40,391 bases of DNA, from assembly GCA_029974315.1 (NCBI GenBank), contig JARKSE010000031.1, forward strand, positions 1 to 40,391, read 5' to 3'. Below the pieces are notes generated by a model. It worked only from the letters and a program-made list of their open reading frames with translations, ran no database searches and was not told the DNA's origin. The translations under genes and the position numbers were made by a program. Origin of the DNA: Paludibacteraceae bacterium. Its GTDB lineage: Bacteria > Bacteroidota > Bacteroidia > Bacteroidales > Paludibacteraceae. Below, piece by piece: positions 34,516 through 40,391 of the stretch; the first letter of the stretch is position 1; each line of letters opens with the position of its first letter.

Positions 34516-35052
34516 TCAAAAAGCTGTTGCTACTATTGTCCACACATCTCTTACGTAGATGTAGATAAAAACAATTCCTATAAGCAGTTTCAACACGGTG
34601 CCTGCTAAGAAACCAATAAACGTTCCAAATCCAATTTTTAAAGCTATTGGAGAAGGTTTTCCTGCTATCAGTTCACCCATCACTGCGCCTACAAAAGGGA
34701 AAATAAGCATTCCCCAAGGTGGCAGAATAAACAAACCTAAAACCATTCCCAATGTACTGCCCCAAGTACCATATTTACTGCTACCGTATTTTTTAGTGCC
34801 CCAAATAGGTAAAAAGTAATCGACAATTTGAATGATTACAACAACAATACCCCAACCGATAAGAAATGACCATGAGTAGTCTATGAGTGTTGTTAAATGT
34901 AATAACACAATACCTAAATAGCTTAAGGGAATACCCGGTAAAACAGGTAAAATACTTCCCAAAAACCCTACGATAATAAGAATAGCAGCAGTAATAATTA
35001 AAAATAGATCCATGAGTGATGAGTGTAAATTTCTATCGACAAAAATACTCAT
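34516..35052 (-). CDS. DUF456 family membrane protein
   Basis: LGSILPVLPGIPLSYLGIVLLHLT; GSKYGTWGSTLGMVLGLFILPPWGMLIFPFVGAVMGELIAGK. Confidence 0.9.
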   Translation of the reverse strand: MSIFVDRNLHSSLMDLFLIITAAILIIVGFLGSILPVLPGIPLSYLGIVLLHLTTLIDYSWSFLIGWGIVVVIIQIVDYFLPIWGTKKYGSSKYGTWGSTLGMVLGLFILPPWGMLIFPFVGAVMGELIAGKPSPIALKIGFGTFIGFLAGTVLKLLIGIVFIYIYVRDVWTIVATAF

Positions 35053-35061
35053 TTCTTATGA

Positions 35062-35096
35062 TAAAAAAGTGAGATTTATGGAATCATAAATCTCAC
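35062..35096 (-). terminator. strong intrinsic terminator (minus strand) closing the candidate ncRNA
   Basis: Perfect 13-bp stem AGTGAGATTTATG (35067-35079)/CATAAATCTCACT (35084-35096), 4-nt loop, U tract on the minus strand. Confidence 0.85.
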
Positions 35097-35218
35097 TAAA
35101 GAGCAATAGAGCTGCCTCAACCCTAAATGTATCCCACTTACATCCTTATTATGTTACTTTTAGCCAAAAAAGTGGGGACTAAAAGCCTAAGGCAATACCA
35201 AAGTTGCTCGTGTGCAAT
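35062..35218 (-). ncRNA. candidate small structured RNA, 6S-like (possible 6S-Flavo type)
   Basis: Intergenic. Nested stems 35203-35208/35100-35105 (GAGCAA/UUGCUC), 35189-35193/35112-35116 (UGCCU/AGGCA), 35169-35175/35132-35138 (CCCACUU/AAGUGGG), with a 13/15-nt central bubble. Own promoter-like and terminator elements. Confidence 0.55.
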
Positions 35219-35224
35219 TGCATA

Positions 35225-35254
35225 GCAAATATGCAATATTTTTATTAAAGCAAA
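35225..35254 (-). promoter_or_regulatory. promoter-like element for the candidate ncRNA
   Basis: Minus strand TTTTG (35254-35250), N17, CATATTTG (35232-35225); one mismatch to TAnnTTTG. Confidence 0.45.
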
Positions 35255-35354: not shown

Positions 35355-35355
35355 G

Positions 35356-35440
35356 TACTCGGAGCGGGACTTGAACCCGCACAGCCGATAAAGGCCAAAG
35401 GATTTTAAGTCCTTCGTGTCTACCATTCCACCACCCGAGC
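35356..35440 (-). tRNA. tRNA-Leu (anticodon TAA)
   Basis: Minus strand GCTCGGGTGGTGGAATGGTAGACACGAAGGACTTAAAATCCTTTGGCC...GGGTTCAAGTCCCGCTCCGAGTA; type II with variable arm; CCA not encoded. Confidence 0.95.
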
Positions 35441-37178: not shown

Positions 37179-40100
37179 TTATTCGGATACTACAAATTTC
37201 TCTGTAAATATTTCGCCTGTGTGCATTCGAACACGAACTAAATATACTCCAGGAGGCGATTGTATCAAGATATCATTTTCTGCATTTACATCTGGAGAAC
37301 TATAAATTGAACGACCAATAGCGTCAAATATTTCAAGCTCTGAACCAAATAATTGATCTTCGGTAAACGGAACTACCACTCGCAATACTTGATTTGACTT
37401 AATTGGGCTCGGAGCTAAAGCTATATTCTGTTTCGTATTCAGTGTGAGTACGCACGATGCAATAGCTTGACCTGTGGTGGTGTAAGCCACTACGTAATAG
37501 TCGCCATAGAATCCTCCTAACTCAGAATAGTACTGTAATGAAGCACCCGTTACACGCTGATTATTCTTATACCATTGATAAGCAGTAAATTCGTGACTGC
37601 TGTTATCGCAAATTAACACGTCGTCCCACATTTGAACAATCATATTGTCGCGGTGTATGCCAAACGATACGAGATATTCGCCACTTTGACATCCTGCTGC
37701 ATTGGTCAACGTAATACGTACTTGGTAAATTCCATAAGGCGCCATAGTAGGAGCTGGGAATGAAATATACATGCTTGTAAGCGCAGCTTCTTCTACATTG
37801 ATAAAACCTGCTGCCAATGCCGCTGAATTGAACGTCAATGAGTAATTAGTTGGATTTCCACCCAATACAGTGTAAGGAATTACTACATTACCTGTACCTT
37901 GACACGTTGGTTGAGGTGGATCAAACTTAGCGTGTGGCGATTCTGACAAGAAGACTTCCACACTAACTACATCAGAAGTTCCCCAAGGTGTGGTTACTCG
38001 TACAGTATAAGTACCTGGAGATGAAACCGTAATGCTTTGTGAAACAGCTCCAGGTGGATTTACCCACATGTAACGATAACCTTCTTCAAAACTACCATTT
38101 GCTGTTAACACTGTTGAGTTTCCAGAACAGATGTAGTTCAAGCCCGTAATAATAGCTTCAAATGGAACCACTGTGATAGTAACAGGAATTGTAGCACGAC
38201 AGCCATTTTCACCTATCGCGGTTAACGAATAGGTTGATGTAACAGCTGGTTGTAGTTGAATAACAGCCTCTTCGCCTATCAACACACCGCCAGCATCACG
38301 CCATTCGTATTGGACACCACCTGTGGCTGTTAATTCCGTTGCCTGTCCCTCATACACCACCAAGCTACCTGTAATAGCAGGTGTTGGTTTTGGATATACA
38401 GTAATAGTAACTTTTGTTGTATCCGACAGATTTTCGCAATGCAGTCTATTAGATGCAATTACCCAATACGTTGTGGTAACAACTGGAGTTACTGTTATTT
38501 GACTACCTATTTGACCAGTACTCCAACGATACAATACACCTTCGCTATCATACTGACTTGTGGCTTGCAATGTAATCGTTTCACCAGGACACACATTAGT
38601 TCCGGTTGGAACGGTAATTTGAACAGAACTTGCTGTAGGCACTTTCACTACTTCGATATGAGCTGTTGCAACACTTGAACAACGATTATCTGTACTAGAA
38701 ATAGCTTCTACGATGTAATCTATTCCATCCACTTCTGGATAAACCGTAATCGAGGTGGAATTGAACCATTGTTTTCCTTCTTTTGAAGTCCACATATATG
38801 AACCCGTAGGAGAACCTGATGCACGTAAAACAACCGCATCGGCACTACCTTCACAAATTTCAGTTTTACTTACTGTTACCGAAATTTTATCCATAGGTGT
38901 AACACGTACTTCATACGATTTAACCAATGAACATCCACTATTGTTGGTAACCGTCAAATAATAAGTTGTTGTTAAACGTGGACCTACTTTGATAGATTGA
39001 CTTGTACCCCAAACTTTACCATCGGTATCGGTCCATGAATACGTATTATGACCAGTATCAGCATCTTGAGCTGCCAATATCACTGAATCTCCTTCGCATA
39101 TCATTACCGATGTAGTGTTTTCATCAAAGATATTAGCACCACTTGCGTCTATAGTGATATTACTTGGAATTGGATTTACTTTCACAGCACGTTCTTTACG
39201 TACTTTACAACCAGCTTCGTTATAAATATCAACGAAATAGGTTACCGTACCTTGTGTATGTGGTAAATTCTCAAATATATTCACATTGCTCGATTGTAAA
39301 ACAGTATAAATAGTACCATCCGTTTTACCAAAATCGTAACGTGTGAAACCATACGTAGCTTCTAATTTAACTACGTTATCTACGCACGCTTCGCCCGAAG
39401 CTGAAGATATCACTTTCAATTCTGTATTTTCTGGTACACCAGCAACTGATACTGCATGAAGCACTTCTGACGATACACAACCAGTCAATGGGTTTCGAGC
39501 TGTCACACGGAAGTTCATCATACCTGCAGTTGTTGGAGAAATAGTCAATGTTGTTCCGGTTTTAGTTTCATTGCCATAAACCCAAGTAACTACAGCATCT
39601 GCAGGACTTGTTGTTGCCACCAATGTGAACGAACCACCAACATCACCTAAACAGAATAAGGTTGGACCGGTCACACTTAATGTTGGAAGCGGATTTACCA
39701 CAACTGAATAGTTAACTGAAGTAGTACAACCTGCTAAGTTAGATACTTGAACATAATATGTGGTATTTCGCGTTGGTTTCACAGTCAACTTGTTACCGTT
39801 AACAATCACATCCGTACCATTATTTATTAACTCATTACCTTCACTGTCAGTCCAACGATATGACAGACCATCTTTATAAGATGCTGTTAACGTCACAGGA
39901 GTTAATGCACAAACAGGATTTGGTAGAGAAGGTACAATCGTGATATCTGTTGGAATAGTCATTACAGTCACTTTATGAACCGTAGCAACCTTACAGAAGG
40001 TCACTTTATTTGTTACAGTAACCGTATAGGTCGTGGTAGTATCAGGCGTTACCTGAATAGCAGCCGAAGTATTTCCAGCTATGGCTGCACCTGTGGAAGC

Positions 40101-40391
40101 CACCCATGCAAAACTATATTTAGTCGGTGCCAAAGCTGTACCGTCAGCCGCTTTGACTGTAAGCGTAATACGTTCACCTTTACAGATAGCCGAACCATCA
40201 GGAGTTACGGTAGCCGCCGAAGACGTTACCGCAATGGTTGGCATAACATGTACATCTACCACTTTAGTCACTTCTCGGTAACATTGTGCCGACGTTGATG
40301 TGTTAGTTATGCGCAACGTGTACGTAGTGGTTACTTGTGGATGTACTTTCACACTCGATTGGTTTGGATTAGAAATCACTTCACCAGAGTT
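37179..40391 (-). CDS. large secreted surface protein with Ig-like repeats and T9SS C-terminal sorting domain (5' end outside window)
   Basis: Repeats with ICxGexxTLTA ... TTTYxVTVTNxxGC; C-terminus ELEIFDAIGRSIYSSPDVNAENDILIQSPPGVYLVRVRMHTGEIFTEKFVVSE. The frame reads through the GTG at 40379, so the listed start is an edge artefact. Confidence 0.9.
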   Translation of the reverse strand, partial: NSGEVISNPNQSSVKVHPQVTTTYTLRITNTSTSAQCYREVTKVVDVHVMPTIAVTSSAATVTPDGSAICKGERITLTVKAADGTALAPTKYSFAWVASTGAAIAGNTSAAIQVTPDTTTTYTVTVTNKVTFCKVATVHKVTVMTIPTDITIVPSLPNPVCALTPVTLTASYKDGLSYRWTDSEGNELINNGTDVIVNGNKLTVKPTRNTTYYVQVSNLAGCTTSVNYSVVVNPLPTLSVTGPTLFCLGDVGGSFTLVATTSPADAVVTWVYGNETKTGTTLTISPTTAGMMNFRVTARNPLTGCVSSEVLHAVSVAGVPENTELKVISSASGEACVDNVVKLEATYGFTRYDFGKTDGTIYTVLQSSNVNIFENLPHTQGTVTYFVDIYNEAGCKVRKERAVKVNPIPSNITIDASGANIFDENTTSVMICEGDSVILAAQDADTGHNTYSWTDTDGKVWGTSQSIKVGPRLTTTYYLTVTNNSGCSLVKSYEVRVTPMDKISVTVSKTEICEGSADAVVLRASGSPTGSYMWTSKEGKQWFNSTSITVYPEVDGIDYIVEAISSTDNRCSSVATAHIEVVKVPTASSVQITVPTGTNVCPGETITLQATSQYDSEGVLYRWSTGQIGSQITVTPVVTTTYWVIASNRLHCENLSDTTKVTITVYPKPTPAITGSLVVYEGQATELTATGGVQYEWRDAGGVLIGEEAVIQLQPAVTSTYSLTAIGENGCRATIPVTITVVPFEAIITGLNYICSGNSTVLTANGSFEEGYRYMWVNPPGAVSQSITVSSPGTYTVRVTTPWGTSDVVSVEVFLSESPHAKFDPPQPTCQGTGNVVIPYTVLGGNPTNYSLTFNSAALAAGFINVEEAALTSMYISFPAPTMAPYGIYQVRITLTNAAGCQSGEYLVSFGIHRDNMIVQMWDDVLICDNSSHEFTAYQWYKNNQRVTGASLQYYSELGGFYGDYYVVAYTTTGQAIASCVLTLNTKQNIALAPSPIKSNQVLRVVVPFTEDQLFGSELEIFDAIGRSIYSSPDVNAENDILIQSPPGVYLVRVRMHTGEIFTEKFVVSE
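38000..40391 (-). repeat. tandem degenerate Ig-like protein repeats (coding)
   Basis: Recurring TTTYTLRITN, TTTYTVTVTN, NTTYYVQVSN, TTTYYLTVTN, TTTYWVIASN, TSTYSLTAIG, each preceded by a C-G-[DE]-type strand. Confidence 0.8.

Follow-up and report, generated by a model that had tools for sequence, protein, structure and literature searches.

A candidate orphan structured RNA with paired hairpin loops, next to tRNA-Leu in one Paludibacteraceae genome and within a phage-like element in its sister genome

In the window analysed here (the whole stretch of 40,391 nucleotides from a Paludibacteraceae bacterium), the minus strand carries a compact predicted transcription unit between the terminator of a tRNA-Leu gene and a DUF456 gene; the rest of the window resembles ordinary chromosome. 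The unit and its neighbours are as follows, where G001 is the sister genome, the only other genome of the genus that was compared:

35355-35440, minus strand: tRNA-Leu (UAA), the upstream neighbour, with its own terminator at 35354-35318
35255-35226, minus strand: promoter-like element TTTTG-N17-CATATTTG, read directly, and kept in the G001 copy
35221-35062, minus strand: predicted RNA gene of about 155-160 nt, 75% identical to G001:C49:49814-50021 and in no Rfam family
35097-35068, minus strand: intrinsic terminator from the terminator scan, a perfect 13-bp hairpin followed by a T-run to about 35062
34516-35052, minus strand: DUF456 gene (ORF call), a separate gene downstream of the RNA, not detected in G001

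A preliminary description of this region, made from the window alone, had read it as a non-coding interval with a minus-strand promoter-like element and a strong terminator, and these three observations are all sound. The Bacteroidota-type promoter consensus is TTTG / TAnnTTTG; the second box of the element matches it at 7/8 positions, though a scan of the window shows that matches to this consensus are not in themselves rare, and the G001 counterpart reads TTTG-N20-TATCTTTG. The 5' leader GCAAUUGC (35221-35214) is conserved in both copies, and we infer the exact start of the RNA within the 35221-35062 unit. The terminator hairpin is near-palindromic and may serve both strands; terminator-like sites in the region number five against 0.4 expected, and the G001 copy has a hairpin of different sequence at the equivalent place. 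No credible conserved ORF is present (the window and G001 copies have zero ORFs in common), which speaks against a coding reading, and a tRNA or tmRNA is likewise rejected, as ARAGORN finds just the tRNA-Leu and a tRNA-Gly. The predicted RNA folds better than 200 of 200 dinucleotide shuffles (z -3.85, a value that includes the terminator and is helped by it). Elsewhere in the window, positions 37179-40379 encode a big repetitive surface-type protein with Ig-like repeats and a C-terminal end resembling a sorting signal, in a frame that extends nearly to the window edge.

The G001 homologue is 75% identical over 196 nt (E 1.6e-28), with homology spanning promoter through terminator and 27 base changes between the copies. 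The two sequences share the following predicted structure:

35209-35101, minus strand: structured core, every pair kept in both copies, with RNAalifold concurring
35209-35204 with 35106-35101, minus strand: helix P1, with double change(s) relative to G001
35200-35198 with 35109-35107, minus strand: UGG/CUA helix, kept in both copies
35194-35190 with 35117-35113, minus strand: helix P2, with double change(s) relative to G001
35185-35177 with 35165-35157, minus strand: hairpin P3, 9 bp, with one double and two one-sided changes
35144-35139 with 35131-35126, minus strand: hairpin P4, 6 bp and a 7-nt loop, with two double changes
35176-35171 (CCCACU) with 35138-35133 (AGUGGG), minus strand: kissing (loop-loop) helix, 6 bp, with one double change and none broken

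All 35 predicted pairs stand in both sequences and none is broken. Six are changed on both sides, and P1, P2, P3, P4 and the kissing helix all contain at least one of these; such compensatory changes in predicted helices are what is looked for in a structured non-coding RNA. The strands of P3 are CUUUUAGUC/GGCUAAAAG in the window copy and CUUUUAACC/GGUUGAAAG in G001, those of P4 are GAUGUA/UACAUU and AAUACA/UGUAUU, respectively, and the complementary loops of the two hairpins are CCCACU/AGUGGG and CCUACU/AGUAGG. When partners were slid by one to three columns as a control, only 33-52% of positions paired and at most one double change appeared. When the 27 changes were placed at random, none of 200,000 trials kept every pair, and when 15 of the 27 were forced into paired columns the chance of this outcome was 1e-5. 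RNAalifold, which cannot draw loop-loop pairing, recovers P1-P4 unaided, and the G001 copy folded alone gives P1, P2, the 9-bp P3 and P4, and no rod with a bubble. The window copy folded alone prefers a different rod (-30.7 kcal/mol) over P1-P4 without the kissing contact (-22.2). The covariation rests on two sequences, and the fold was assembled while viewing both, a bias in its favour; however, P1, P2 and the loop-loop pairing were first named from the window alone, whereas P3 and P4 came out of the fold of the G001 copy by itself, so each helix has been tested on a sequence that was not its source. These comparisons support the view that the locus is a real structured RNA gene.

The preliminary description had arranged this RNA as a rod with a closing stem, a large open bubble and an apical stem, and had likened it to 6S RNA. 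Its stems GAGCAA/UUGCUC and UGCCU/AGGCA are present and kept in the homologue. The CCCACU/AGUGGG pairing is also present and kept, but as the kissing contact rather than as the apical stem of a rod. The bubble does not survive the comparison, as its strands form the covarying hairpins P3 and P4; nor does the promoter mimicry proposed for it, since the promoter-like UACAUUUAG overlaps the 3' strand of P4, which is paired. The unpaired parts that are conserved lie elsewhere. Of these, the asymmetric internal loop that separates P1 from P2 is the most strictly conserved, being identical in both copies (it falls within GCAACUUUGGU and GGCAGCUCUAUUGCU), and the linker CAUAAUAAG is likewise conserved and unpaired.

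If the locus were a 6S RNA (SsrS), it would be a decoy of the RNA polymerase holoenzyme that mimics a promoter, and its length and closing stem are similar to those of 6S. At curated cut-offs Rfam gives zero matches at the locus, and the 6S models RF00013, RF01685 and RF01693 give none even at E<=10; the scan against 6S and 6S-Flavo models was the check that the preliminary description had itself suggested. Rfam lists the 6S RNA of the Bacteroidales as RF01693 ('6S-Bacteroidales RNA suggested'); it was first described as the Bacteroidales-1 motif (PMC2864571). G001 carries a clear RF01693 match (88.3 bits against a cut-off of 60, C22:255456-255635) as well as, on another contig, the homologue of the window RNA, so that two distinct RNAs coexist there. 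The preliminary description had held that a 6S RNA elsewhere in the genome would count against its reading, and the sister genome has exactly that. RF01693 passes its cut-off in 18 of 41 close genomes and can be detected in 31 of them at E<=1. A 6S gene would be the only one of its genome and widespread in the family, but the window RNA is present in 2 of 358 genomes of the family. It is in favour of a 6S identity that no 6S was found in the window genome, whose assembly is 82% complete; but the phosphoglucomutase-like gene that lies 5' of the 6S in G001 is cut here by the end of contig C117 (base 8546), and the 6S gene is probably merely absent from the assembly, its slot lying beyond the contig end. 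With the would-be bubble strands paired as well, we reject the 6S reading and give it almost no chance of being correct, while the part of the original claim that stands is that an unannotated structured RNA gene lies here. Sub-threshold matches to 6S-Flavo (RF01685) in the Bacteroidales coincide with RF01693 positions (five of six such matches in relatives also match RF01693 at the same place), hinting that the two models describe one 6S lineage.

The genomic surroundings of the two copies are different. The G001 copy is found about 3 kb into a 20.75-kb element (G001:C49:46834-67636) bounded by a 53-bp direct repeat at a tRNA 3' end (46834 and 67584); the anticodon of this target tRNA, read by eye, is CGU (Thr). 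The element encodes a tyrosine integrase, a GH24 lysozyme, many small membrane proteins, a capsid-like protein and an ATPase-like protein that weakly matches a terminase, with no recognised tail genes among those scanned, and from this gene content we infer that it may be a tailless phage. The capsid-like protein gave no match among solved structures, and no relatives were found for three element proteins in the viral contigs searched or for two element proteins in phage records. Related elements are present in other genomes of the family, some of which share the ATPase and the capsid-like protein (about 28-38% identity), and the RNA was not detected in five such elements from four genomes. 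A second G001 element (C46, ATPase at 65705-66232) has genes in common with the 20.75-kb element, including a protein at 81% identity, and is without the RNA. The G001 RNA has its own promoter and terminator and sits between two opposite-strand genes, so that the next gene runs against it.

The slot that the RNA occupies in the window can be recognised in G001 by its neighbours; it lies between tRNA-Gly and tRNA-Leu there, with the same thioredoxin-like gene on one side and cysK on the other. The G001 slot has neither the RNA nor DUF456, which is nowhere detected in that genome, but a LuxR-type regulator gene instead (1792-2433 of the compared locus). The interval from tRNA-Leu to cysK is a variable slot, with DUF456 and the RNA in the window and the LuxR-type regulator in G001. 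The location of the RNA therefore differs between the two species, as the G001 slot is without it and the RNA is there in a tRNA-integrated element. No partner protein is common to the two neighbourhoods. The divergence of the RNA (75% identity) is near that of orthologous neighbours (77-81%), and the RNA may thus be as old as the species split.

Two readings bear on the window's arrangement in particular. One is that the RNA acts in cis on the DUF456 gene, as its leader or attenuator; this gene is on the same strand and starts about 10-50 nt beyond the terminator, more likely at the in-frame ATG at 35013 than at 35052. DUF456, however, seems to own a TATTTTTG box 3' of the RNA terminator; G001 has the RNA with no DUF456 detected and an opposing gene next to it. 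As the position before the same gene is not conserved, we reject this reading and consider it highly improbable. The other is that the window copy is the functionless, decaying relic of an element since lost. Integration at tRNA 3' ends is common, and the RNA lies about 130 bp beyond one such end, with zero phage genes left, in a slot that differs from that of G001. On the other hand, no duplicated tRNA end is found nearby, and the pairs, promoter and terminator are intact even though a quarter of the sequence differs, which makes such decay improbable in our judgement.

The RNA is very rare. A covariance model built for it was positive in only the window genome and G001 when applied to all 358 family genomes and to samples of 393 (order), 396 (phylum) and 272 (class) genomes; these samples overlap, for about 1,300 distinct Bacteroidota genomes, and the strict filters used can lose distant members. 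One weak extra match (23 bits, in G1361) was discarded, as it runs antisense to the coding gene in which it lies and does not keep all the pairs. In viral contigs, pattern scans, the covariance model and inspection of matches turned up chance matches only; blastn against phages and plasmids gave nothing useful, and a search of the literature on prophage-encoded RNAs of Bacteroides found nothing relevant. We propose on this basis that the RNA is a new orphan structured RNA family with two members, absent from Rfam.

Comparison of the two loci shows a free-standing, independently bounded and probably non-coding RNA that keeps its predicted fold in unrelated gene contexts. The best reading of these contexts is that the RNA is an accessory cargo gene, standing alone next to tRNA-Leu in the window and lying inside a tRNA-integrated phage-like element in G001. 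In both genomes it would be transcribed alone from its own promoter and ended by its own terminator. Its core would consist of the outer helix P1, the invariant asymmetric internal loop, P2, and the hairpins P3 and P4 with their loops paired; the kissing contact would lock the tertiary shape, and the locked shape could offer the internal loop as a site for a protein of host or phage, which would be sequestered or modulated. The RNA would then act in trans, and not by promoter mimicry. That it is such a trans-acting scaffold, whose tertiary fold and internal loop present a protein or ligand site, is a model to which we give about an even chance.

A base-pairing regulatory sRNA, whose conserved linker or leader pairs with host or phage mRNAs and whose structure serves mainly for stability, would also have its own promoter and terminator, and the conserved unpaired stretches CAURAUAAG and GCAAUUGC could be its seeds. 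But the internal loop, with its stricter conservation, is flanked by a helix on either side, and covariation is seen in the tertiary contact, which is beyond the needs of a simple antisense RNA. We regard this alternative as possible but rather unlikely; a protein or ligand scaffold fits better than an antisense seed because the internal loop is strictly conserved between helices and the hairpin loops are engaged.

The element in G001 suggests a further alternative, in which the RNA is an assembly part of a phage-like particle and its complementary loops link molecules head to tail, as in the phi29 pRNA, whose molecules are joined when two different loops pair (PMC7357161). Two different hairpin loops do covary here as partners, and the element encodes a packaging-ATPase-like protein. 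Against this, no match comes from the Rfam library, where a phage pRNA would be listed; the RNA was not detected in related elements that have the ATPase; in the window the RNA is on its own, and the ATPase is unmatched in that incomplete genome; and the loops are able to pair within one molecule. We think such a role improbable. The broader idea, that this is a phage-borne RNA class which assembles by loop-to-loop contacts and serves the assembly or host takeover of a (probably tailless) Bacteroidota phage-like element, with a lone chromosomal gene kept in the window species, is a speculation that we consider slightly less probable still.

To our knowledge, the RNAs of Bacteroidota phages have been little described. 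If the preferred reading as an accessory trans-acting RNA is correct, it would add a family absent from Rfam whose kissing-loop tertiary contact has covariation support, and would tie an RNA gene standing alone in a chromosome to a phage-like element integrated in a tRNA gene. The locus also illustrates that a single-sequence fold (here a 6S-like rod) can mislead, and that one homologue sufficed to replace it.

Several known systems resemble this RNA in part. RF01693 (Bacteroidales-1 / 6S-Bacteroidales) and RF01685 (6S-Flavo) RNAs are likewise free-standing, of similar length and with a closing stem, and occur in the Bacteroidales, but the window RNA has no sequence or model match to them, coexists with RF01693 in G001, and has two kissing hairpins where they have an open bubble. 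Like the phi29 pRNA it has an outer helix beyond which lie two hairpins with complementary loops, and it is carried by a phage-like element; it has six loop pairs against four in phi29 (PMC7357161), does not match the Rfam model for phage pRNA, is undetected in related elements rather than present throughout the group, and occurs also outside any element. A similar mode of working is possible even so, as it is compatible with a lack of membership in the phi29 type. The purine riboswitch aptamer shares the layout of a stem, a junction and two hairpins with paired loops, but the window RNA is without an Rfam match to it, has an extra helix and an internal loop, and ends in its own terminator with no same-strand gene downstream in G001. 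Finally, the G001 unit, between opposite-strand genes with its own promoter and terminator, is like the cargo genes ('morons') of phages, from which it differs in being an RNA rather than a protein gene and in lying outside any element in the window genome.
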